From the IMG/VR virus record IMGVR_UViG_3300020153_000010, positions 1 through 23,269 of that record: DNA of 23,269 nucleotides, one strand, 5' to 3'. Origin of the DNA: a virus. The notes beneath the pieces were generated by a model. The model ran no database searches. It saw only the letters and a list, made by a program, of their open reading frames with translations, and had not been told where the DNA came from. Made by a program: the position numbers and the translations under genes. Shown here piece by piece: positions 2,554 to 23,269 of the stretch; the first letter of the stretch is position 1; each line of letters begins with the position of its first letter.

Positions 2554-3987
2554 ATGGATATCGATCTTACTGACGCACAGAAACGATTAGCATCGCTCCC
2601 ACGATCGCCTTACGTAACGGTGATTGAGCAATTTGTTGCGGGGAACCATTGGCAGGGAGGGATGCAGTGGATTGGACCACGACCTGGGCGTGACGATGAC
2701 CATGCCGCTCAGGTGATGCAAGAAATCGAACGAACGTTTGTTGCAAGAAATGTGATCGGTGAAGTTATTGACCGGCACGTGAATGGTGTTGTTGGAAGAC
2801 CGGTTGCATGGCGTCTAGTTGGTAATGGCAATGTAGATGACGTTGTTGTACACGAAGCAGAGCAAGCGTTAACGCGGTGGTGGGATTATTATGAGCTTGA
2901 TTTCTTCCTATCTCAGTTTGTTCGGCGTTTACTAATACAACAGCGAGTTCCGCTGCGTGTGATTTTGCCGTCGGCGGATGCGCGGGTTTGGACGTCTGGA
3001 CTTGAGGATGTCATGCACCACGTGCGTGTTGAGATGGTAGACTTGGCACTCTGTGGTGTGATCAAGGATGGATTGATTAGGTACGGCCTGTTAACAGATG
3101 GGCAGTACAGTGAGATGAGTTGGTTAGATCGTGGTGACACAGTGTTGCGGATTAGGGATGGATCTATGGAAACTGAGCAGCGATTACCACTTGACGGTAT
3201 GTTGCTGCATTACGATGCTATCCGCGATCCGTTTGTAACAGAGACGTTGATTCGCCAGCAGCGGTTGCTGAATCTGGCATGTACAATGCTCAGTCGTAAT
3301 GTTGTTATGGGAGGTTTTTTGGAGCGGGTGCTTCTCAACGCCCAATTGCCTGGACGTTGGGAAACCACTCCTGACGGTCGGCGACGGTTTGTTCCAGAGA
3401 TGCTGCGTTTCGGGGCTGGGTCAGTTACCGTGTTGCAAGGTGCAGAGATTCGTGATGAGCGCACGGATGAATTGAAAGGGTTCGCGACACCCAACGTCGT
3501 TTATCGAGATCCGGTGCCAGTTGAAACGTTTGATCAGACGATTGCGATTACATACCGTGCCATGCTCTCAGAGGTCTCACAGCTCCATGCGTTACTAGCA
3601 GGTGATGCAGTAGCAAGTGGGATTGCGCGACAACAGGCGATGCATGATTTTGCAGGATCGTTGCGCACAACTGCCCACGTCGTGGAATCGATGGTGCGAT
3701 GGATGTTACGGGTTGTGCTCGCTGTAGCTGCATACTACAGTGGAGTTACAGAACGGTATCGGTTACTCCGTCCGGTTGTGATGTGTCACTTGCATACAGG
3801 GCAGCAGATGGTTACGCCTGAGACATTGGTACGACTGGTCGACAGTAGAATCATGAGTCGTGAAACAGCAATGACATGGCTTGGTATACACGATCCTGAC
3901 GGAGAGTGGGATCGCATTCAACGTGAGCAACAGCAGGCAAGCACACTTTCTCAGCAGATGTTAGCAGCATTTGATAGCGGGCTATGA
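2554..3987 (+). CDS. Phage portal protein
   Basis: This 477-residue protein follows the large terminase and precedes the MuF head protein, the usual portal position. It shows portal-like features: an N-terminal segment on binding and replacement of residues around NVIGEVIDRHVNGVVGRP, a central alpha/beta region, and a helical C-terminal part with SEVSQLHALLAGDAVASG and a late MSRETAMTWLG segment of the kind seen near portal C-termini. The dodecameric portal forms the DNA entry vertex and docks terminase. AGGGA (2543-2547) lies just before ATG 2554. Its last codons overlap the next gene by an ATGA. The exact portal subfamily (SPP1-like or other) is not certain. Confidence 0.88.
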   Translation: MDIDLTDAQKRLASLPRSPYVTVIEQFVAGNHWQGGMQWIGPRPGRDDDHAAQVMQEIERTFVARNVIGEVIDRHVNGVVGRPVAWRLVGNGNVDDVVVHEAEQALTRWWDYYELDFFLSQFVRRLLIQQRVPLRVILPSADARVWTSGLEDVMHHVRVEMVDLALCGVIKDGLIRYGLLTDGQYSEMSWLDRGDTVLRIRDGSMETEQRLPLDGMLLHYDAIRDPFVTETLIRQQRLLNLACTMLSRNVVMGGFLERVLLNAQLPGRWETTPDGRRRFVPEMLRFGAGSVTVLQGAEIRDERTDELKGFATPNVVYRDPVPVETFDQTIAITYRAMLSEVSQLHALLAGDAVASGIARQQAMHDFAGSLRTTAHVVESMVRWMLRVVLAVAAYYSGVTERYRLLRPVVMCHLHTGQQMVTPETLVRLVDSRIMSRETAMTWLGIHDPDGEWDRIQREQQQASTLSQQMLAAFDSGL

Positions 3988-5723: not shown

Positions 5724-5964
5724 CGCATGTTGGCTGCGCTTTGATCCGTCTACAGCCCAGTTTGTACTGGAGCGATCGGAAAGTGATCAATGCTATCGGA
5801 TAGTAAGCGAAATCAACTGGGCTTTGGCAACGCTGCCTGGAGGGGTGCCATCGCACCCATCTCCTGCGCAGGCCTTGATCGATATGCTTACAACGTTATA
5901 TCCAGAGCGCGTTACTGTGTATGCCCGTCCACTTGATAATCGTCGTGGTGATGAGGTGTATTAA
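5701..5964 (+). CDS. Small hypothetical phage protein
   Basis: This 87-residue protein starts inside the end of the MuF gene (23-nt overlap) and its TAA overlaps the ATG of the next gene by one base, so the three genes are probably translationally coupled. The purine-rich GGGGCGAG (5693-5700) precedes two candidate starts, ATG 5701 and ATG 5704. The protein has a mixed alpha/beta look (LLIKIDACWLRFDPSTAQFV at the start) and no motif I recognise. Its tight packing between head genes suggests a structural or accessory role in the head, by context only. Confidence 0.7.
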   Translation: MMLLIKIDACWLRFDPSTAQFVLERSESDQCYRIVSEINWALATLPGGVPSHPSPAQALIDMLTTLYPERVTVYARPLDNRRGDEVY

Positions 5965-6839
5965 TGTTACTGATACCGTTTTCCGCAAAAACCATTTCGT
6001 CGCCGGTGCAACTGCCTGTCTATACATCACGATCCTTTGATGCTCCTTACGCAATGATCAATGGGTCACCTGTGTATCTCGCTAGCGATACGGAATATCG
6101 GTTCCGAGACATCCAAGAAGGATGGGCACATTTAGAATCAGAGATCGGGTTTATCCCGATGTCGTATCTGGATCCGAGAAGTATTCAGATCGATCCCAAT
6201 GCATATAAGCGCATCGTTAGCATGGTTACATCACGCTCTGGCGCGAAAGTGCATGTCAATGATCCCATTTGTACGACTGTACAGCGTTGTCATGACGTGG
6301 AACATATATATCGGAGGATTGTAGATAATCGGTACCATGTCTATCCAGTAGACACGTTGCGGTTCATCATTGACACCTATTATGCAATTGGGACGCAAGC
6401 AGGGATTGATTGGGTAATGATGATTGCTCAATCCATTCACGAAACAGATTGGTTTCGATCCTGGTGGGCTCAACCCACAAGACATAATTTCGCAGGTATT
6501 GGAGTGACTGGTGAGGTCTTATCGCATCGTCCGCCCGATGTGCGGAGATGGGCGTATCGAGCGGACGATCAGCGATGGTATCGCGGCTATACCTTTTCTT
6601 CTGTGTACGATGGTATCGCTAATCATGCAGCACTATTACTCGTGTACGCTCAACCGTCAGCACTGTGGACAGAGACACAGCATGCTCTCGTACGCAAGTC
6701 TATGTTTGCTCTCACATTTCAATCACATCCGTTTGCAGGCATTGCCTCCCGTTGGGTAGATCTAAATGGCCGCTGGGCTGTACCGGGTACATCATATGCT
6801 CAGCAGATTGCACGTGTTGCGATGCTCCTACTGCCATAA
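5964..6839 (+). CDS. Cell-wall hydrolase: SH3-like domain plus glucosaminidase (GH73-like) domain
   Basis: This 291-residue protein has an N-terminal SH3b-like stretch (about 18-70: PVYLASDTEYRF, EGWAHLES, GFIPMSYL) and a C-terminal lysozyme-fold domain resembling the GH73 N-acetylglucosaminidase family: MMIAQSIHETDWF with E160 as candidate catalytic acid, then HNFAGIGVTG, a YDGIANHAALL helix and a closing WVDLNGRWAVPGTSYAQQI segment. It would cut peptidoglycan glycan strands, either as the endolysin or as a virion-associated enzyme that opens the wall at infection. No signal peptide is seen. Its place between the MuF gene and the scaffold is unusual for an endolysin. TAATG overlap couples it to the upstream gene. 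Confidence 0.82.
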   Translation: MLLIPFSAKTISSPVQLPVYTSRSFDAPYAMINGSPVYLASDTEYRFRDIQEGWAHLESEIGFIPMSYLDPRSIQIDPNAYKRIVSMVTSRSGAKVHVNDPICTTVQRCHDVEHIYRRIVDNRYHVYPVDTLRFIIDTYYAIGTQAGIDWVMMIAQSIHETDWFRSWWAQPTRHNFAGIGVTGEVLSHRPPDVRRWAYRADDQRWYRGYTFSSVYDGIANHAALLLVYAQPSALWTETQHALVRKSMFALTFQSHPFAGIASRWVDLNGRWAVPGTSYAQQIARVAMLLLP

Positions 6840-8089: not shown

Positions 8090-9199
8090 ATGGAAATCTT
8101 TTTCACTGAAGCACTGCAACGACTCGGCCCTGACGCCGCATTCAGAATCATCAATGAAGCGCGGCCGGGAAACGTGTATTTGCTGTCAACATTGCTTCCT
8201 GAGCGTTCCATGCCTTCCTACGAGGTGCGGGGTGGATCGCTCGTAGTTCACTCAACAATGGCTGGGTTGGTAGGGTTGGACTCTCCGTATCCGCCGAGTG
8301 GTGCGATGAGTGTCAGCGCGTTTCTCGAGCGAACGGCGAAGCTGGCAAATGAAGTTGTCATGAGTGAACATGCATTACGAACACTACAGGAGATGATGCT
8401 ACGAGTTGGTCAGCAGGATATGACTGAACGGCTTGTAGAAGAAGTGTTGAACTTTACCGATGCAGTGCTTGTGCAACCACATCTTGATGCGGCAGAGTAC
8501 TTGCGTGGTCAGGCGCTTGGTAATGGGATGATCGAGTGGAACTACGGTTCAACATCGATGACTGTTGACTACGGTATTCCCACTACTAACCGGCTTCCAG
8601 TACGCACGGGGGCAGACGCATACGGGGGTAGCTCGTCAAAATTCTGGGATGACATACGGTTGCAAAATCGGTTACTTCGATTTGCATCGCGTATTGTGCG
8701 CATTGCACATCCAGATTTAATTGACAGTATCATCTACAACGATGCGAACGCGCTGCAAGTATTGTCGATAACGGAAAATACCATCACTGTGCGTCGTGTA
8801 GTGTCGACCGGTGGTACACCTGTTGCATCGAACGATGCGCGGGATGTGGTGGAGATCATTCGGTATGGTATGGAAGGAGAGGTGATTAATCCTGACAATC
8901 CTACACAAACAATCCGTGTGCCATTCTGGCCAAGAAACAAATTAGTCGCAATTGGACTTGGAACTGGACGTGGGTATGTGGTTGGATCAGGATCGCGTCC
9001 TGCAGAGGATACAGCATTGGGATATACACATCTTGCTCCAACGGTTGAATCGGGAGGTAAGCCAGGGCGGTGGGCCCGGGTCCATACCCCGCCAGACCGA
9101 CCGTGGCAACTAATCGGGCAGGCGGTAAGCAATGTACTCCCTGTCATTGATGCGCAGTGTGTTAATCGGATTGTCATTGCGACAAGCGATGTAAGTTAG
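8090..9199 (+). CDS. Major capsid protein (lambda gpE-like family)
   Basis: The 369-residue length, position after scaffold and decoration genes, and layout match the gpE capsid family with an HK97-type fold. A helical segment (SVSAFLERTAKLANEVVMSE, about 75-95, then TLQEMMLRVG and a TERLVEEVLNFTDAVLV segment) corresponds to the spine-helix region. The C-terminal part has RPAEDTALGYTH and a PPDRPWQLIGQAVSNVLPVI segment, where gpE proteins carry a conserved proline/aspartate-containing end. AGGAGA (8079-8084) precedes ATG 8090. The last four codons and stop lie in a 13-bp near-tandem duplication (9185-9210); with a single copy the protein would end SDVR instead of SDVS. Confidence 0.85.
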   Translation: MEIFFTEALQRLGPDAAFRIINEARPGNVYLLSTLLPERSMPSYEVRGGSLVVHSTMAGLVGLDSPYPPSGAMSVSAFLERTAKLANEVVMSEHALRTLQEMMLRVGQQDMTERLVEEVLNFTDAVLVQPHLDAAEYLRGQALGNGMIEWNYGSTSMTVDYGIPTTNRLPVRTGADAYGGSSSKFWDDIRLQNRLLRFASRIVRIAHPDLIDSIIYNDANALQVLSITENTITVRRVVSTGGTPVASNDARDVVEIIRYGMEGEVINPDNPTQTIRVPFWPRNKLVAIGLGTGRGYVVGSGSRPAEDTALGYTHLAPTVESGGKPGRWARVHTPPDRPWQLIGQAVSNVLPVIDAQCVNRIVIATSDVS

Positions 9200-9210
9200 C
9201 GATGTAAGGT
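9185..9210 (+). repeat. 13-bp near-perfect tandem duplication at capsid gene end
   Basis: AGCGATGTAAGTT (9185-9197) is followed directly by AGCGATGTAAGGT (9198-9210), 12 of 13 bases identical. The TAG stop of the capsid gene (9197-9199) is formed across the junction. The second copy also contains an in-frame TGA if read as the ancestral end. Confidence 0.9.
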
Positions 9211-9222
9211 GAAGAAACCGCG

Positions 9223-9585
9223 ATGATAACGTTTGATCCGTCTCTTAGCAGAGATATTGACTGGATACGGGCAGCATTAGGCGACACAGACCCAGATACT
9301 GCACTATTGAGTGATCAGCAGATAGAGGCAGTACTAATTAGCGAGCAAGCACAAGGTGGAAATCGAGATACGGCTACCTTCCTCTTAGCAAGTCAGGCTG
9401 TAGCTGCAATCGTGCGCGAGCCGGTCCGTCTTTCAGCGGCTGGTGAGGAGCATGACTACTCACAACGACTCGTTGTGTTGCAGCCATTAGCAGAGATGTG
9501 GCGGATGATACAGGGACGACGTACAGGAACAACTCATTTTGACGGTCGTTCTACGACAAGTGTGACAGGAGTTGCCTCGTGGTAA
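9223..9585 (+). CDS. Putative head-tail connector protein
   Basis: This 120-residue acidic, mostly helical protein is the first gene after the capsid gene, where head-completion adaptors sit. It opens with SRDIDWIRAALGDTDPDTAL and a LSDQQIEAVLISEQ helix, followed by TFLLASQAVAAIVREPVRLS, a pattern common in small neck adaptors that bind the portal ring. It ends with a polar tail. AAGGTGA at 9206-9212 is about 10 nt from ATG 9223, a long spacing. Function is by position and general resemblance. Confidence 0.65.
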   Translation: MITFDPSLSRDIDWIRAALGDTDPDTALLSDQQIEAVLISEQAQGGNRDTATFLLASQAVAAIVREPVRLSAAGEEHDYSQRLVVLQPLAEMWRMIQGRRTGTTHFDGRSTTSVTGVASW

Positions 9586-9893
9586 CATCACGATTTCGGC
9601 GACAACGACGGAGCTCATTGCGACGGCGATATGACACTGATGTGGTTCTCTCTCGCGGTGGTCGTGCATTACCTGTTCAGCGAGTCGCATTTGACGTATC
9701 ACCGCGAGTCGCTGAGCAAGTAATAAGCGATTCTTCCCGAGGAACCTTAACATCGTTGATCATGTGGGGGCCATCATCAATGGATGTACAGGTAGGTGAT
9801 CGGTTTGTGTACGATCACTGTACGTATACAGTCATTCGTATCCGTCCAGGTCGCCAATATACGACGATCATCGATGCTCGGGCAGTGCAATGA
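9579..9893 (+). CDS. Putative head-closure (stopper) protein
   Basis: This 104-residue protein has a very basic N-terminus (RFRRQRRSSLRRRYDTD), then a beta-rich body with VQVGDRFVYDHCTYTVIRI and TTIIDARAVQ. That order, and the place between connector and gp10-like genes, match small beta-barrel head-closure proteins that seal DNA in the filled head. GTG 9579 is the start: GGAG (9568-9571) is 7 nt upstream, and the frame overlaps the previous gene by 7 nt. Its TGA overlaps the next ATG. Family not proven. Confidence 0.65.
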   Translation: MVTSRFRRQRRSSLRRRYDTDVVLSRGGRALPVQRVAFDVSPRVAEQVISDSSRGTLTSLIMWGPSSMDVQVGDRFVYDHCTYTVIRIRPGRQYTTIIDARAVQ

Positions 9894-10219
9894 TTCGATG
9901 GCAACGTAGACCTGGTGAAATCCCTATTCAGTCGTATGCTGAACGGGTTCAAATGAAGATCCAACAACAGGCAGATCGCTATGCAAGTATCATGGAAGCG
10001 TCTGCAAAGGTAAATGCTCCATGGACAGACCGAACCGGCAAAGCACGTGCAGGGCTGTTTGGTACAGTTGATAAGCACGGGAATGTCATCACTGTTGTAC
10101 TTGCTCATTCGATGGAATATGGGGTGTATTTAGAGCTGGCTCACGGTGGAAAGTACGCCATCCTGTGGCCGACAGTGATTGAAACGGCACCAAAGCTGAT
10201 GCGCGAATTACACTTGTGA
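9890..10219 (+). CDS. HK97 gp10-like tail-completion protein
   Basis: This 109-residue protein resembles the HK97 gp10-like family at the head-tail joint: a helical N-terminal part (AERVQMKIQQQADRYASIM), a NAPWTDRTGKARAGLFG core, then a beta hairpin and AHSMEYGVYLELAHGGKYAI, followed by a C-terminal helix. The NAPW-TG-A-R-L and Y-YLE-HGG-YAI signatures are conserved in that family. ATG 9890 overlaps the previous stop (ATGA) and its own TGA overlaps the next start region, so the neck genes are tightly coupled. Confidence 0.82.
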   Translation: MIRWQRRPGEIPIQSYAERVQMKIQQQADRYASIMEASAKVNAPWTDRTGKARAGLFGTVDKHGNVITVVLAHSMEYGVYLELAHGGKYAILWPTVIETAPKLMRELHL

Positions 10220-10623
10220 TGGACGACGTATTGAGATGGCTCGGTGAGGATAGTGATCTGACCAATTTGCTGACCGGTGGAATTTATGACGGGCGACGGG
10301 TTGGAGAGATCGGCCTGTCTACAACGCCAGGCGCATATTTTCAGGGTGTATTATTGCCTTGTGCGTTGGTTACTATTCAAACCGAAACACCATTTGGCCC
10401 GTATCTGACATCCGCGTTACGCACTGTGATTTGCTATTGCTATCAAGATGAAGGCTATAATGTAATCATGCAGGCACAGCAGCGCATCTACAAAATCGTC
10501 CATGGCAGGAACACCGATGAGCGGGGTTGGTTCTACCGCCATACCGGTGATGTTATGCAGTACGATCCTGTTCTGCATGCATACTATATTGCCTCTCGCT
10601 TCGCTGTCATAATTATGAAATGA
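10219..10623 (+). CDS. Putative tail terminator protein
   Basis: This 134-residue protein comes just before the major tail tube gene, the usual terminator position. It begins DDVLRWLGEDSDLTNLLTGG and has a PCALVTIQTETPFGPY strand, resembling the alpha/beta fold of terminators that cap the tube and join it to the head. An in-frame GTG (10216) precedes ATG 10219; I chose ATG 10219 because it overlaps the TGA of the previous gene as TGATG. Assignment relies on order and fold-like layout. Confidence 0.65.
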   Translation: MDDVLRWLGEDSDLTNLLTGGIYDGRRVGEIGLSTTPGAYFQGVLLPCALVTIQTETPFGPYLTSALRTVICYCYQDEGYNVIMQAQQRIYKIVHGRNTDERGWFYRHTGDVMQYDPVLHAYYIASRFAVIIMK

Positions 10624-11234: not shown

Positions 11235-11666
11235 ATGAACGTTCAGGAATGGCGAGAGCGACGGAAACGAGAGATAACGTTACCAAGTGGACTGCAGGTA
11301 ACGATTAAATCGGTTGGATTGCTTGACTTAGCTGCATACGGGAAAATACCTACACCATTAGTTGATACGGTCCAGCATCTGATGACATCGTCAGATTCGC
11401 ATGGCATGGCAAAGCTTGATTTGCGCGTGCTGCCGGATTACATGGAAGTCATTAATCTGGTCGTGATGGCCGCTGTGGTTTCCCCACGTATTACGGCCGA
11501 TTCCCCTGACCCAAATGATGATCAAAACATTTCCATCGATGAGCTTTCAGTTCTGGATCGTCTCGAGATTTTCAATGAAGCCCAACGCGAGGGGGTTGCA
11601 CTGCTCAAATTTCCTCAGCACACCGACCAATCTTCAGTTGCTGCATCAATTAGCAATAATGTATAG
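11235..11666 (+). CDS. Tail assembly chaperone, first frame (gpG-like)
   Basis: This 143-residue protein lies between the tube and tape-measure genes, the standard place of the tail-assembly chaperone, which coats the tape measure during tail growth. It starts NVQEWRERRKREITLPSG and then VTIKSVGLLDLAAYGKIP, typical of such chaperones, and ends with a variable acidic and polar tail. A longer upstream reading exists from GTG 11169, but GGAG 11226-11229 is 5 nt before ATG 11235, and the hairpin would sit inside the longer form. The last 150 bases overlap a second open frame. Confidence 0.75.
   Translation: MNVQEWRERRKREITLPSGLQVTIKSVGLLDLAAYGKIPTPLVDTVQHLMTSSDSHGMAKLDLRVLPDYMEVINLVVMAAVVSPRITADSPDPNDDQNISIDELSVLDRLEIFNEAQREGVALLKFPQHTDQSSVAASISNNV
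11591..11595 (+). promoter_or_regulatory. Candidate +1 ribosomal frameshift site (GGGGG)
   Basis: Within the chaperone gene the codons GAG-GGG-GTT contain five G residues. A +1 slip of the glycine tRNA from 11592-11594 to 11593-11595 re-pairs perfectly and moves into the second frame, which stays open to 11847. Lambda and many other siphoviruses use a shift at this place, most often -1. No downstream stimulator was established. Confidence 0.3.
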
Positions 11667-14749: not shown

Positions 14750-17700
14750 ATGTTGTCTGAAATTCGCAAATCATTCAAACATTGGACATGTACGCTAACT
14801 ATCAACGGTCAGCCATACACGATTGTCGATAGATTACCAAGCCGTAGTATGGCTTTAGATCAAGCACGCAGTGTCTGTACGGTTGTGGTACAGGAATTCC
14901 CAGAGTGTAATGCCGGTGATCCAGCACAAGTGAGGATCACCATTAATGGGGTAACCGAGCTTTTCTTTACTGGCCAGGTCGCTGCACGTCCAATTGCAGA
15001 CATTCCACAATATGAAATTCACCTCGTTGATACGTTAGATCGATTGCAACGCATCACAGATCGACCCATTGTTTGGCGAAACGTGTCATTTCAATCCGCC
15101 GTTCGCCTTTTGCTACACCAGGCTGGCATTACGGATGACGAAATTGTGTCTATTCACGATCCGGGATCTGCTTACGTACTAGGCCCGATATATGCAATCA
15201 CAATCCCTGCAGGAAGTGTGATTAGAGATGTCATTGATACTCTGATGGATTTTGCTGGAACCGCGATCCGCGTCAATCCAGATGGTCGTATTGTCGTTGT
15301 CGATGACCCCATTAAGCCATCAGTTCCAGTATGTACGTATGCGTATGGTGCAACAGAATTAGAGTTGGGTTATTTATCTGCACGCCGCACGATTGCTGGG
15401 CGAGAAGATCGTATTTCACGATTTACTGCACGCGGTCCGCGACGGCCAGACTTGTCAATTCCTGATGCAACTTACGTACTCAACAATGATGGACGTAGTG
15501 AGCAGCGTGATTACCCGTATTGCCAAACGGATATATGTGCTCAGGCAATTGCCGCACGTGAAATTGTGCGACGAAACCGACGTATGGGAGAAGTGTTAGT
15601 CGAAGCGACACTGAACCCTCTCTTGCGTCCCGGGGACACCGTGCTGTTCCGCAGCGAACCGCTTGGATTTGTTACGGCAACACCGGGCGTCATTGTGTCA
15701 ATCGTTAACAACGATGACGTCATGACAATGAAAGTAGCCGTTGGTATTGAAAGCCCATCTGGTTCGCTATCACTCATTGCACCTCCAACTGCATCGTTTA
15801 CGTATAGCGCAGAGCGACAGCCGATCCAACTTTCCGGAGCTGTTGATACAAATGTGATCGTGTCATGTATGAATACATCGGTGGACCCGTCAGGATTTGC
15901 GATCACCACGTTGCGTTGGCGAGCAACATGCGAAGGCACAGTATTCCCACAAACGGTTACGTGGCGAGCTGGTGACGACGATACCGGACAACAACCGATC
16001 TTTGTGTTTTCAACGCTTGCCGGTGCAACAGTCACACTGGAGGTGGAAAGTGAAAGTGGCGAAGGGGCAACGACCACGCGGGCGATCGACCCGCCTAACT
16101 CACTTATCTATACACGCAAGCTCGGTGTTGCAGCCCACAATGGATGGCGTGTTTTAGCAACTGCTGATGGATGGCGTACATTTGGCACGCAATGCTCTGC
16201 CGTTCCTAACATTAACGATATGGCTCCTTTTTTGGCAGGATTTGATAATGGAGATATTTATCGCACAAACAACGATCTGGCAACGCAACCGGACAAACTT
16301 GCTACATTGTCAGGCCGCGTGCACAGCTTGTACCTTGATGAGGTCGATGGATTAACTGTTACCGCAGCACATGGTAACAGTGTCAGTCTGAGTACAGACG
16401 GAGGAACATCGTGGGCTCTGCTGCATGTGTTCGATGATCCGGTACAGTATGCGGCACATGAGGCTGGCAATTGGTCAGTTATCCGCGCCTGCAGTGGCAA
16501 TACTCTGTGGCTATCATTAGACGCCGGCAGGACATGGCAAGCCCGGCTTACGGCGGATGGTATTGCACGGCAATTTGCCCGGGCTCGATGGGGAACTGCG
16601 TGTGTATTTGCTGGTGGAACACTTGATCAGGCTATTCAATTTGAAGATGAGAGCAGTGTTGACTGGAGCCTGATACCAATTGATAAACGGCCAATATTTG
16701 GATTAACAGCAATTGCACCGTTACTTCGTGAAGAGGGATGGATCGTTGGCTCAGATGGGGTCCGTGACGTTACACGCGATGGCGTCATGGAAATGCTAGC
16801 TTATGCAGCCACAACAGGATCAGGATATGTGTACAAACTGATCAGAGATGGAAATAACTGGAGAGCAGTATCATATACTTATATTCCTGGAGGTGGGGTG
16901 TGGAAAATCATCAATTACACGACTGCACACTCTATCGATGCGAATGTGTCAATGGCCTATCGTATTGGATATGGAACAACAACCGACCCACCAACACCTC
17001 CAGAACTGTTGTTCCTCCCCATGAACGGATCAACCCTGTATCATTACATACCTGGCAGTGGGTGGACACCGCGACCATTGCCAAGTACTCCCATTGGCTC
17101 CACCAGTCTCGGAGGATCAAACGGTTGGGCTGGCATAGCCATCAATCCACAAAACGTTACCCAGTGGGTCATTTGGGATAGAGATCGCTACTACTGGAGT
17201 GGAGACTCCGGCAACACGTGGCAGCAACTCAATGTACCAGTATCATCAGGCGATGATGCAACGGGCATTAATCTCGGATTTGCTTTCACCGGTCAGGGTG
17301 GGGGATGGGTTGCAACCAAGCATTTTTACAGCATATACGGTACTGGATACTCACTAGGATACTTGGCGTATGGAAACGGTACAAGAGTCCAAGAATATGT
17401 AGCTTTAGGTGATCTTAGAGGACAACCTGTTCCACCGATTCAATTTGTAGACAATTTCCGGAGTTTCCAGCAAGTACTCACAGGCCATCAAGGAGAAATG
17501 CTTGTGCGTGGTGCAAACCAGAGGCGCATCACCGAGTTTGGTGTACGAATGTGGATTCCTAATGCAGACCGGTTGTTTTTAGTATCACCACGACAGACAA
17601 CAGTTGTCCAAGATGTTCCATTCCATTTCACATTGGGTGATACCGTCGATGATATGTCACGGAAACTCATTGTCGTTCATGACTTGTCGTTGTGGATAAG

Positions 17701-18025
17701 TTTGGATTACCGTACTATGCCACCACAGCAATTAGTGGCAGCAGGCGGTAGCGTGGTATCTTGTCTGCATGGTTTGTACTGTGGACATCGTATTGGGGTC
17801 GCGAGAGTAACCAATATTGACAATGTTCCTGAAGTGACCATAGTGATTGCGCACAACCGTCCAGTTGGTCAAGTCGTGCGTGGACGGCGCCGCGTTGCTG
17901 TGGCAGCATTTCTGCCGGCACATTTGACAGCACCACCACAAATCGCGTATTACAATGGGTCTCAATGGGGAATTGTTGATACACCCGTAGCGAGTGGTGG
18001 ATTGATCGCCCTTGTAGAGCCATGA
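14750..18025 (+). CDS. Tail hub/tip protein with Ig-like domain and Asp-box beta-propeller
   Basis: This 1091-residue protein is the largest tail gene. Residues 1 to about 340 resemble a baseplate-hub protein (WTCTLTINGQPYTI at the start, later AIRVNPDGRIVVVDDP, as in gp27/protein-D-like hubs). About 345-450 look like a PKD- or Ig-like beta domain. About 455-870 hold Asp-box motifs of the sialidase/BNR propeller type: STDGGTSW (548-555), SLDAGRTW (589-596) and SGDSGNTW (817-824), with a degenerate TADGWRTF at 471. Asp-box propellers occur in sialidases and other carbohydrate-binding or binding-only proteins; catalytic residues cannot be assigned here. The C-terminal ~200 residues are beta-rich and unassigned. 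No good Shine-Dalgarno precedes ATG 14750. Confidence 0.75.
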   Translation: MLSEIRKSFKHWTCTLTINGQPYTIVDRLPSRSMALDQARSVCTVVVQEFPECNAGDPAQVRITINGVTELFFTGQVAARPIADIPQYEIHLVDTLDRLQRITDRPIVWRNVSFQSAVRLLLHQAGITDDEIVSIHDPGSAYVLGPIYAITIPAGSVIRDVIDTLMDFAGTAIRVNPDGRIVVVDDPIKPSVPVCTYAYGATELELGYLSARRTIAGREDRISRFTARGPRRPDLSIPDATYVLNNDGRSEQRDYPYCQTDICAQAIAAREIVRRNRRMGEVLVEATLNPLLRPGDTVLFRSEPLGFVTATPGVIVSIVNNDDVMTMKVAVGIESPSGSLSLIAPPTASFTYSAERQPIQLSGAVDTNVIVSCMNTSVDPSGFAITTLRWRATCEGTVFPQTVTWRAGDDDTGQQPIFVFSTLAGATVTLEVESESGEGATTTRAIDPPNSLIYTRKLGVAAHNGWRVLATADGWRTFGTQCSAVPNINDMAPFLAGFDNGDIYRTNNDLATQPDKLATLSGRVHSLYLDEVDGLTVTAAHGNSVSLSTDGGTSWALLHVFDDPVQYAAHEAGNWSVIRACSGNTLWLSLDAGRTWQARLTADGIARQFARARWGTACVFAGGTLDQAIQFEDESSVDWSLIPIDKRPIFGLTAIAPLLREEGWIVGSDGVRDVTRDGVMEMLAYAATTGSGYVYKLIRDGNNWRAVSYTYIPGGGVWKIINYTTAHSIDANVSMAYRIGYGTTTDPPTPPELLFLPMNGSTLYHYIPGSGWTPRPLPSTPIGSTSLGGSNGWAGIAINPQNVTQWVIWDRDRYYWSGDSGNTWQQLNVPVSSGDDATGINLGFAFTGQGGGWVATKHFYSIYGTGYSLGYLAYGNGTRVQEYVALGDLRGQPVPPIQFVDNFRSFQQVLTGHQGEMLVRGANQRRITEFGVRMWIPNADRLFLVSPRQTTVVQDVPFHFTLGDTVDDMSRKLIVVHDLSLWISLDYRTMPPQQLVAAGGSVVSCLHGLYCGHRIGVARVTNIDNVPEVTIVIAHNRPVGQVVRGRRRVAVAAFLPAHLTAPPQIAYYNGSQWGIVDTPVASGGLIALVEP

Positions 18026-19950: not shown

Positions 19951-20661
19951 TCACATACGATACTGAGCTAACAGTAAAGATGTAATATCAGCGATCGTGT
20001 TTGCATCAAGAACATGTGGATAGACAACACACTCAAAAAAGCAATAGTTAGATCGAACAGTACCAGCTCCGGAAAATGAACCAATAGAAAAGCTGCCAGA
20101 ACTCGATGAGAGGTCGATTGTGGCCGTTGCCACCAAAGATCCGTTATCATATACAGACAACACTGATCCATCGTATGTCATACAAACAATTTGGGGGGAG
20201 GTTTGGAGTGAACCGATGACAATATAAGAAAAGTCCATGTAAGACGGACCGCGTTGATACCGATAGACACCGCGTCTTAGAGCAAAAAAAAGATTTCCAT
20301 ACCAGTAGATTGGGGAAGCTACAATCCACGTATCTACGAATGTTGGATAGTTCACAAATAGTATCGTGCGCTGGTCGTTACCCGTTATGGAGATCCACGA
20401 TGCCGAAAATACTCTGTTATATATGCGTACACCGTACCCAAACGGTGTACTTTCTAACGATGGTGTTGTACCGGATGTCAACAGCAATGACCCTGATCTA
20501 GAGGTCTTGTCATAAAATCCAACGACCGTGCCATGTGTACCGATTATCGGAGCATCTACTGCCCACCAGCATCGTGGGCTTCCAAATTGAAAAGCATCAA
20601 AATACCGTAATTGTCGGTAACGCCGAGGGCGTGCAAGCGTCCGCCTAGGAAATCCGTACAT
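19951..20661 (-). CDS. LamG/concanavalin-like lectin-fold virion protein
   Basis: This 236-residue minus-strand protein reads like a single LamG-type beta-sandwich: CWWAVDAPIIGTHGTVVGFYD, then GYGVRIYNRV, RTILFVNYPTF, a central FFALRRGVYRYQ strand, VCMTYDGSVLSVYDNGSLVA and a closing VVYPHVLDANTIADITSLLL helix, the pattern at the end of LamG domains. Such domains bind sugars and are common at phage tail tips. Its ATG overlaps the TAA of the preceding gene (TAATG), so the two are coupled. It converges on the plus-strand tail genes with a 3-bp gap. Confidence 0.72.
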   Translation of the reverse strand: MYGFPRRTLARPRRYRQLRYFDAFQFGSPRCWWAVDAPIIGTHGTVVGFYDKTSRSGSLLLTSGTTPSLESTPFGYGVRIYNRVFSASWISITGNDQRTILFVNYPTFVDTWIVASPIYWYGNLFFALRRGVYRYQRGPSYMDFSYIVIGSLQTSPQIVCMTYDGSVLSVYDNGSLVATATIDLSSSSGSFSIGSFSGAGTVRSNYCFFECVVYPHVLDANTIADITSLLLAQYRM

Positions 20662-21068
20662 TAGAAATCCCCAAAATTGGCAATCACGGCGACTTCAGCA
20701 GAAGAACTCACGGCCGTTGTCATTGCGCAGCGTATTTCCCATCCATGACCAATCACCCACTTGACGTTATTAGGGTCAAGCCAAACCCATCGTGATGGAT
20801 TAAGCAATGATACCATTACTACCGGTACGGCAGGACTTGCCGACGGGATTGAAATGCTATCTACCAAAAAACTTTCGGCTTGACTAGGATTAACCAGCAG
20901 CACAGATAAAAACCGACTGGTAGGATCGTTAGAAGTGACAAACAATCCTTCCAGTAGACTTCCATTTGATCCTGCTACAAGGAGGGTTTTTGCGTTGGTT
21001 CCGTCACTCGCTCGCAACTTAATTGCAGAAGTGCGGGCCGTTCCAACGAATTGCGGTGTTGTTGCCAT
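20661..21068 (-). CDS. Conserved small virion-type protein
   Basis: This 135-residue minus-strand protein begins ATTPQFVGTARTSAIKL and continues DGTNAKTLLVAGSNGSLLEG, LSVLLVNPSQAESFLVDSIS and a final VAVIANFGDF, matching a small beta-sandwich protein commonly found beside phage tail genes. A GTG at 21080 and an ATG at 21074 are in frame; GAGG fits best to ATG 21068 (6 nt). The stop overlaps the next ATG. Its pairing with the LamG protein suggests one tail-tip or fibre unit. Exact role unknown. Confidence 0.65.
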   Translation of the reverse strand: MATTPQFVGTARTSAIKLRASDGTNAKTLLVAGSNGSLLEGLFVTSNDPTSRFLSVLLVNPSQAESFLVDSISIPSASPAVPVVMVSLLNPSRWVWLDPNNVKWVIGHGWEIRCAMTTAVSSSAEVAVIANFGDF

Positions 21069-21076
21069 ATTCATCC

Positions 21077-21631
21077 TCACGGTGTATCAATATACTGCTG
21101 CCCATCTGGCGATCGACGAACCACTTTGCCGTCCCGCGTAATTAAATCAATGGGATCGAGTGACGACGATGATCCACGCTGACGAGCGATTTCAGCTTGC
21201 AGTGCCGCACGTGCAATCCGATAAATGGGATTGGCACCACCAGGAGTGATGTTTAACCCATACCGTATTGCATCTGTCTCACCAAGTTTCGCCGATCCAT
21301 CAGCTCGACGAGCCTTTACGATGATACGTGCGAGCGCAATCATGACAGCAGTAATAATTGCCGGATCATCGCCGGTGTGTTGTGCTAATTGTTTGACATG
21401 CTCACAACACACAAGAGGTGGGTTGTGCGTATTTTGTGGCTTTGCAATCGAGTTTGTGTGACTCGATGGCTGTTGATCAACGTCACTTGTATCGTCATCG
21501 TTATCTAAATCATCAGGCGTATCATTTGACGTAATAAAGTATCTCCGTGCTATGAGGGAGAATATTTCCAAAACTAAATACGCCAGAACACACACTATCA
21601 TCAGGATAAATATCCACTGAAGTGGTTCCAT
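21077..21631 (-). CDS. Single-pass membrane protein, unknown
   Basis: This 184-residue protein has a strong N-terminal transmembrane helix (about 5-30, WIFILMIVCVLAYLVLEIF), then a disordered acidic linker (about 35-60, rich in D, N and S). The rest is largely helical, with TAVMIALARIIVKA and NPIYRIARAALQAEIARQ segments, and a polar C-terminus. It probably sits in the membrane with the larger part inside. I recognise no family. Its neighbour in the operon is a four-helix membrane protein, so they may form a complex. The Shine-Dalgarno before ATG is weak. Confidence 0.65.
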   Translation of the reverse strand: MEPLQWIFILMIVCVLAYLVLEIFSLIARRYFITSNDTPDDLDNDDDTSDVDQQPSSHTNSIAKPQNTHNPPLVCCEHVKQLAQHTGDDPAIITAVMIALARIIVKARRADGSAKLGETDAIRYGLNITPGGANPIYRIARAALQAEIARQRGSSSSLDPIDLITRDGKVVRRSPDGQQYIDTP

Positions 21632-22129: not shown

Positions 22130-23101
22130 CTACGATTGATATCCTTCCTCTAATCCGGTACAAACCCATGCACGTACATCTATTCGACTCAAAGACATCG
22201 TATTTGCATCGTCAACGTATGGACGCCAACGCCGACTGTTCGGCAACACCGAAAGCCAAAATTGTGCTGCACGTTCACCCTCAGCATCGTTATCGGTGCT
22301 AACCAGCACCAACGGTGCTCGGGCAAGTCGAGCAATCCATCGAATGCGTCGCCCATTTGACGCCCCGCCCAGACCCATCGGAGTGACAAGATCCCCTGCA
22401 TACTGCTGGATAATGAGGGCATTCAATACCCCTTCAACCAGCATGACCGGTCGATTGACAGAGCCAGAGATGTTCCATATAACATTGCTACTTCCGGGCA
22501 CTGTGTACTGTCGTTTGTGTGTAATCGACCGAATCTCGATTTTTGCAATGCGTCGATCAACATAGTAAGGGATGACAATACCTGCGGGTAGCACAAGCTG
22601 TCCATCACGTCCCCACCGGTTTCCCGGCCGCACGAGACGTGCCCTATTCCAACCCAGACGTGCATTGAGCGCTGTCAAATCAGTAATGTGTCGCTGATTG
22701 AGATATGCAAGTCCACGTTCGTCGTCCTCTGCCCATAACCAGTCCTGGGTATAGGAGACAAATGCTTCAGCAGCACACTGCCACTGTTCACAGGGCAAGT
22801 CTGTACTATCAGGAGCGGACAGATGCGTTACTGTAACACCAGTTGGCCGGCGTAATGGAATATTTACTGCTTGTGCACGACGGAATGCGCTACGAAGTGT
22901 TGATCGGATCTCGTGCAGTGGTAAACCAATGTACTTTGCTATATCTGTAAGCTGGTTAGTAATGTCATCACATGCAATGGCACCACCCTTTGCAAGCTCG
23001 TATAACCGCACTGCTGTACGAAACAATTGATTATTCCGTCCGCTGCGTGTGTTGCGCAAAATCTCAAATTCTCTTGTGATCACGCTCTGAATGTAATCCA
23101 T
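22130..23101 (-). CDS. DnaG-like Toprim primase-type protein
   Basis: This 323-residue protein has an N-terminal helical segment (about 20-76, RNNQLFRTAVRLYELAKGG and GLPLHEIRSTLRSAF) typical of primase-associated domains, then a DnaG-like YLNQRHITDLTALNARLG region (about 133-150) and a Toprim core: E223 in VMLVEGVLNAL, D270/D272 in VSTDNDAEGE, and DDANT (297-301). Toprim folds make RNA primers. No zinc-binding N-terminus or helicase domain is present, so a helicase or zinc partner would be elsewhere. AGGAGGG (plus-strand 23107-23113) is 5 nt from the start. It heads the minus-strand operon, next to a repeat cluster. Confidence 0.82.
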   Translation of the reverse strand: MDYIQSVITREFEILRNTRSGRNNQLFRTAVRLYELAKGGAIACDDITNQLTDIAKYIGLPLHEIRSTLRSAFRRAQAVNIPLRRPTGVTVTHLSAPDSTDLPCEQWQCAAEAFVSYTQDWLWAEDDERGLAYLNQRHITDLTALNARLGWNRARLVRPGNRWGRDGQLVLPAGIVIPYYVDRRIAKIEIRSITHKRQYTVPGSSNVIWNISGSVNRPVMLVEGVLNALIIQQYAGDLVTPMGLGGASNGRRIRWIARLARAPLVLVSTDNDAEGERAAQFWLSVLPNSRRWRPYVDDANTMSLSRIDVRAWVCTGLEEGYQS

Positions 23102-23170: not shown

Positions 23171-23269
23171 ACTGAAGAACTGAAGACACCGGCCAATGAT
23201 GTCTTCAGTACTGGCCAGGTACACCAAGTGAAGAACTGAAGAACTGAAGAACTGAAGATACCGGCCAAT
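23171..23269 (+). repeat. Iteron-like repeat cluster at window edge
   Basis: An 8-bp unit TGAAGAAC recurs: copies at 23173-23180, 23229-23236, 23237-23244 and 23245-23252, with variants ending the runs (23181-23188, 23253-23260). A larger 27-bp repeat, 23171-23197 and 23243-23269, has 26 of 27 bases identical and ends in CCGGCCAAT; the second copy reaches the last base, so the array may continue. In addition, 23179-23188 and 23200-23209 form a perfect 10-bp inverted repeat around an 11-nt loop. It lies upstream of the Toprim gene, so an origin or an operator is plausible. Confidence 0.85.

Follow-up and report, generated by a model that had tools for sequence, protein, structure and literature searches.

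Mirrored iterons between DUF3987 helicase and Toprim primase genes as a putative phage replication origin

The array of 8-bp repeats at the end of the virus contig IMGVR_UViG_3300020153_000010 is very likely, judging from sequence comparison, the primase-side half of a phage replication origin lying between the genes of a DUF3987 helicase and a Toprim primase. The whole origin would consist of array A, with 8-bp iterons and an inverted repeat at its end, followed by an A+T-rich melting core and a mirrored array B. In a related species (contigs G001 and G002), the array, its register, the core and the gene order can be read from the assembled contigs, and elsewhere the layout recurs with other iterons. 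The window, that is, the entire 23,269-base record analysed here, breaks off within the array, and only one iteron set (array B) and the primase gene are visible in it because the contig ends there. The array is therefore truncated, and the first-pass annotation, which had suggested an origin or a repressor-binding region, saw only part of it.

Anatomy and distribution of the repeat

Between positions 23171 and 23269, five exact units and one variant unit of 8 bp lie on the plus strand, the exact word being ACTGAAGA. The features at the contig end are as follows:

22130..23101, minus strand: Toprim primase gene, 323 aa
23102..23170, no strand: spacer from the primase start to the array, 69 bp
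23171, 23179, 23235, 23243 and 23251, plus strand: exact ACTGAAGA units, by word count
23171..23186, plus strand: two tandem iterons, ACTGAAGA ACTGAAGA
23179..23209, no strand: inverted repeat ACTGAAGACA-N11-TGTCTTCAGT, its left arm an iteron and its right arm an inverted iteron
23202 (23202-23209), opposite orientation to the plus-strand units: single inverted unit copy
23227, plus strand: variant unit AGTGAAGA
23227..23258, plus strand: four tandem iterons, AGTGAAGA ACTGAAGA ACTGAAGA ACTGAAGA, which align with the G001 and G002 arrays
23243..23269, plus strand: second copy of the 27-bp repeat; the contig stops within what is presumably the loop of a second inverted repeat

The two copies of the 27-bp repeat (23171-23197 and 23243-23269) agree at 26/27 positions (96% identity). 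The inverted repeat pairs 23176-23188 with 23200-23212 at 12/13 positions around a perfect 10-bp core (23179-23188 and 23200-23209) with an 11-nt loop, and its unit starts are 23 bp apart, as in both inverted repeats of the related species. The array is non-coding, and the minus-strand Toprim gene starts at 23101. A recount thus confirmed the repeats, the 27-bp repeat, the 10-bp stem and the non-coding site before a replication-type gene that had been described earlier. The earlier count of four exact and two variant units depends on the word chosen: four exact units are obtained on the plus strand with TGAAGAAC, and five exact plus one variant with ACTGAAGA. Promoter and terminator scans of the spacer gave no match, and no sigma-70-like promoter was found near the array in a scan limited to that type. 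The window primase matches Pfam Toprim_3 weakly (E 0.0037), and its 51% identical homologue in G001 is above the cutoff (E 9.9e-7); no zinc-binding domain was detected in the 323-aa protein.

The repeat exceeds chance expectation by several measures. The 15-mer CTGAAGAACTGAAGA, allowing up to 3 mismatches, matches the window 5 times where 0.43 matches are expected, a number reached in 0/100 shuffles. The most frequent 8-mer of the last 99 bp occurs five times, which was equalled in 3/20,000 shuffles; elsewhere in the window no 99-bp stretch holds 4 copies of any 8-mer, and the densest 8-mer repeat cluster is the array at the contig end. Outside the array, ACTGAAGA has one further copy in the window, at 11631. 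Scattering of the repeat through the host genome had been named earlier as an observation that would speak against an origin. Among 2.9 million viral contigs, the composite pattern GAAGARSTGAAGA-N14-16-TCTTCAST was found in just 2, both from the related species. By this sequence search the array repeat is not a dispersed element, and the composite pattern is confined to this lineage. The same search of viral contigs did not find a further contig of the window's own species. The exact 16-mer ACTGAAGAACTGAAGA was rejected as a means of finding relatives, as it returned 43 viral-contig stretches, near the chance number, with only G002 a relative. Cumulative GC skew, proposed as a check for an origin, proved uninformative: its extremes track gene orientation, and there is no switch at the array.

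The complete site in a related phage species

A search of viral contigs with the primase returned one relative, G001 (28,816 b), with a 51% identical primase. Its contig begins right at an array of the same unit, upstream of the primase gene and separated from it by a 114-aa ORF. Comparison across relatives, suggested earlier as a check, therefore places the array at the same position before the primase in a second species. G002 (15,860 b, found by a pattern search) and L053 belong to the same species as G001, with 99.4-99.9% identity over most of the shared length; no further species with a primase this close (51%) was found. Beyond the end of G001, G002 continues through genes for an XRE regulator and a tyrosine integrase, two small ORFs, the DUF3987 helicase gene (Pfam E 2.3e-14), an array in the opposite orientation and an A+T-rich stretch.

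The end of G002 is identical to G001 53-84 over 32 bases. The joined origin combines contigs from two metagenomes, rests on this 32-bp overlap and is joined only across the helicase-primase gap. In this species the DUF3987 helicase gene is followed by array A, the A+T core, array B in inverted orientation and the primase gene. The DUF3987 stop lies at 15512 and the first iteron at 15527 in G002, placing the origin candidate immediately 3' of the helicase gene. From that stop, the joined site reads:

first: one unit
next: five tandem units, AGTGAAGA, GCTGAAGA and 3 x ACTGAAGA
next: an inverted unit 23 bp past the last tandem unit, then a divergent pair
core: CTTTTTTTAAAAAACCTTTTTAAAATATGCGTTTTATATT, 85% A+T
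past the core: one more inverted unit
array B, mirrored: a unit, the 23-bp register, then four inverted tandem units
end: CCCTGGCCGGCCAGGG, then the next gene

The joined gap holds 15 units, 11 of them exact, all intergenic and lying on both sides of the core; 11 exact units within its 414 bp were reached in 0/1000 shuffles. The window array aligns with both the G001 and the G002 arrays. All three visible inverted repeats share the 23-bp register, and their loops have diverged, that of the window included.

G001 and G002 disagree over the first 52 bp of G001, which repeat G001 3598-3646 in inverted orientation, 30 bp of it perfectly (L002/L050:1-52 and 3598-3646). The stretch at 3598-3646 lies between convergent genes of that contig. 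A small mobile repeat, a strain difference and an assembly fault are candidate readings of the mismatch.

The first-pass annotation had offered slippage of the 8-bp repeat as an alternative. Neutral microsatellite slippage, or an assembly artefact at the contig end, would suit tandem 8-bp units, which are prone to slippage, and a contig that stops within the array. However, independent assemblies from other metagenomes carry the same array in the same place at 51% protein identity, and the inverted and dispersed copies keep a fixed register. Slippage fails to account for the mirror arrangement, the fixed 23-bp inverted-repeat register or the conservation, and we regard this explanation as highly improbable.

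The carrier of the array has the gene content of a phage. The window encodes terminase and major-capsid-like proteins, and its terminase, capsid and tail-type genes are largely collinear with those of G001, with a few genes relocated. A Glucosaminidase-domain gene lies among the structural genes at 5964-6839; its G001 homologue (23161-24120) lies across the terminase genes, a relocated lysis gene. Two minus-strand genes at 19951-21080 have homologues in G001 (9199-10337) within the late block and in late-gene orientation, which by sequence is a rearrangement of tail-associated genes. A 1091-aa tail-region protein (14750-18025) has a weak Sortilin/Vps10 match that suggests a beta-propeller in a tail protein. 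The ORF at 1-281, cut by the contig start, presumably resembles phage Gp37/Gp68-type (DUF5131) proteins. A terminase search returned four MAG contigs (two labelled Chloroflexi, one Bacillota and one Pirellulaceae), so that any host assignment is a guess. Capsid alignment against genome contigs gave no match, nor did searches for the primase in isolate phages or for the DUF3987 protein in isolate phages and plasmids. When the primase was aligned to 50 terminase relatives, one partial match resulted, and alignment of DUF3987 in 38 relatives gave none.

DUF3987-Toprim gaps across Chloroflexota

If the origin reading holds, other DUF3987-Toprim gaps should contain iterons around an A+T-rich stretch, with the word free to differ. 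We tested this prediction in 400 genomes from the phylum of a Chloroflexota MAG, Chloroflexota being the phylum covered. A DUF3987 relative was present in 18 genomes and a primase relative in 17; in ten, the two genes lie side by side in the same order and on the same strand. Mirrored iterons surround a central, more A+T-rich stretch in 6/10 of these gaps (G167, G135, G159, G100, G336 and G116). The gaps of G167, G135, G159 and G100 contain 9-11 copies of AGTGTCA, all forward copies to the left and all reverse copies to the right (0/1000 shuffles), around a central stretch of only 62-68% A+T in this clade. In G336, AAAGTAG occurs 2+2 times around an 88% A+T core (9/1000 shuffles). In the G116 gap, GTGTCA arrays are nested and mirrored about an A+T core, and they include a 28-bp inverted repeat read off the sequence.

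The gap of G338 has a degenerate version of the mirrored layout. That of G181 has no array; mirrored ACTTAAGA arrays around a very A+T-rich stretch lie about 5 kb away, where L188:2960-3740 comprises five 60-bp repeats with paired ACTTAAGA, some 300 bp of very A+T-rich DNA and then inverted copies. This locus is a candidate displaced mirrored origin, its word being close to ACTGAAGA. G317 encodes a fused DUF3987 protein with no primase gene next to it; a small mirrored array lies 2.2 kb downstream. The gene pair is also present in G385 and G391, with no array in 40-60 kb. Elsewhere, L196:11013-11103 and 16910-17007 hold nine CCGGAACC repeats, spaced mostly at 12 bp, and an array of GTGTGACA close to a primase relative (G175); G175 has no DUF3987 relative.

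Because G167, G135, G159, G100 and G338 are close relatives, the layout is found in the gap in about four independent lineages: this phage, the G167 clade, G116 and G336. It is displaced in G181 and G317. Class-level searches mostly returned the same elements. In 20-kb stretches around G135, G336 and G167, the densest 8-mer cluster is the DUF3987-Toprim gap, likewise in the window and in G002. G336 is a phage-like replication cluster with RusA, and G135 is an integrated plasmid-like island with an integrase, an actin-like ParM-type gene beside the module, and Replic_Relax. Thus the suggestion of an origin made in the first-pass annotation has gained support: the array is kept in the species with the 51% identical primase, a core and an inverted second array are present there, and distant Chloroflexota elements share the layout.

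Two further explanations bear on this distribution. The array could consist of repressor or activator sites, for example for the XRE protein of G002, that control the primase operon and have no role in initiation. Its position just upstream of a gene, the inverted repeats, which would fit a dimeric regulator, and the Cro/C1-type HTH protein encoded by G002 are consistent with operators. However, the mirrored arrays flank an A+T-rich core inside a run of same-strand genes, and the layout accompanies the DUF3987-Toprim pair in elements whose iterons differ. No array copies lie near the XRE gene, which is about 3.3 kb off, and the sigma-70-like scan gave no promoter at the array. Regulation alone is therefore unlikely; repressor binding or autoregulation may accompany origin function.

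The second explanation is a centromere-like partition site or an integrase attachment site. Iteron arrays can act as centromeres, and the ParM-type gene of G135 would be in line with partition, but no partition gene was seen in the phage. Core-plus-arm repeats are known at attP sites, and three contigs end at the array. However, in G002 two small ORFs and the helicase gene separate the integrase gene from the array, a distance of 2.3 kb, and the G002 contig covers array A, the core and the beginning of array B, so the contig ends fit repeat-induced assembly breaks. We consider either role quite improbable, and a replication origin remains our preferred reading.

The putative initiator and related origins

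A DUF3987 fold predicted from a single sequence was unusable (pLDDT 37); an AlphaFold2 model built from 17 aligned DUF3987 sequences reached a mean pLDDT of 85.5. In this model, residues 460-521 are predicted to form helix-helix-helix-strand-strand, a winged-helix topology. The best solved Foldseek matches are MCM subunits (best E 1.8e-6), with a TM of about 0.36 that places the likeness at the level of fold class only; the viral matches are phage primase-helicases and DUF3987 proteins. A PDB sequence search found no credible relative. The predicted structure of the protein is that of an AAA+ helicase of MCM-like fold, carrying a winged helix at its C-terminus. DUF3987 proteins are predicted to be helicases of mobile elements (PMC5862659), and they mark satellites such as PICMIs (PMC10803314). 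In openly accessible papers naming DUF3987, no DNA target or cis site was seen for it.

By analogy with SaPI Rep, SCCmec Cch2 and P4 alpha, DUF3987 is probably the iteron-binding initiator, and we infer that its C-terminal winged helix reads the iterons. It would assemble at both arrays, the two assemblies facing each other, and then open the core, and the Toprim primase would prime both forks.

The sequence is best read as belonging to the origin of a self-sufficient phage, with an organisation resembling that of the SaPI/PICI and P4 origins. According to PMC6092414, an A+T-rich region between two sets of iterons, 3' of the initiator gene, is a constant feature of PICI origins and is shared by no other known bacterial replicon. 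Two iteron sets flanking an A+T-rich region are found here in the G001/G002 species, G135, G159, G167, G100, G336 and G116. As in the SaPI/PICI origins described in PMC6092414 and by Ubeda et al. 2007 (via PMC7581432), two sets of short iterons surround an A+T-rich melting region 3' of a helicase gene, with a primase alongside; SaPI Rep and Cch2 bind such sites through their C-terminal domain (PMC7581432). For SaPI/PICI-type origins, a pri-rep-ori segment is enough to maintain a plasmid. In contrast, the carrier here encodes terminase, capsid and tail proteins of its own and is a phage rather than a satellite, and its terminase and capsid genes mean that the element is not a PICI. Additionally, the putative initiator is a DUF3987 protein, MCM-like by predicted fold, the origin lies between the helicase and primase genes, and an inverted repeat derived from the iterons closes each array.

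The origins of lambda and of iteron plasmids also have iterons next to an A+T-rich unwinding element. Lambda has one iteron set, inside gene O. The iterons described here are intergenic and flank the core on both sides, whereas those of lambda lie within the initiator gene with the A+T element on one side. A non-exhaustive search identified neither a lambda O gene nor a WH1-type Rep gene here.

The repeats of the P4 origin are octameric, and its ori and crr are distinct sites. The phage described here has instead a single compact mirrored site, and separate DUF3987 and Toprim genes where P4 has alpha, a single fused primase-helicase. P4 repeats are read by a winged-helix domain of the helicase, as those described here would be, and both systems have a Toprim primase (PMC4234260, citing Yeo et al. 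2002). In SCCmec, the C-terminal dsDNA-binding domain of the Cch2 helicase recognises iterons just downstream of its own gene, as DUF3987 would; these are three 5-bp AAGTG iterons, mirrored arrays are not described, and the primase is the polymerase-type CCPol-MP rather than a Toprim protein (PMC7581432).

More broadly, and tentatively, DUF3987 proteins may be iteron-reading initiators that define a replicon class across Chloroflexota phages and integrated elements, each lineage having its own word that co-evolves with the winged helix. Mirrored arrays would then load two opposed MCM-like hexamers around the core, much as in eukaryotic double-hexamer loading but by direct sequence reading. We see this extension as plausible, if somewhat short of probable. 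The mirrored origin beside the DUF3987 gene gives DUF3987 a concrete, testable target and would connect iteron recognition with an MCM-like fold. The origin layout, described as unique to PICIs, is extended to integrated elements and to phages that encode their own capsid, and the gap between the DUF3987 and Toprim genes becomes a place to check when origins are sought in uncultured phages.
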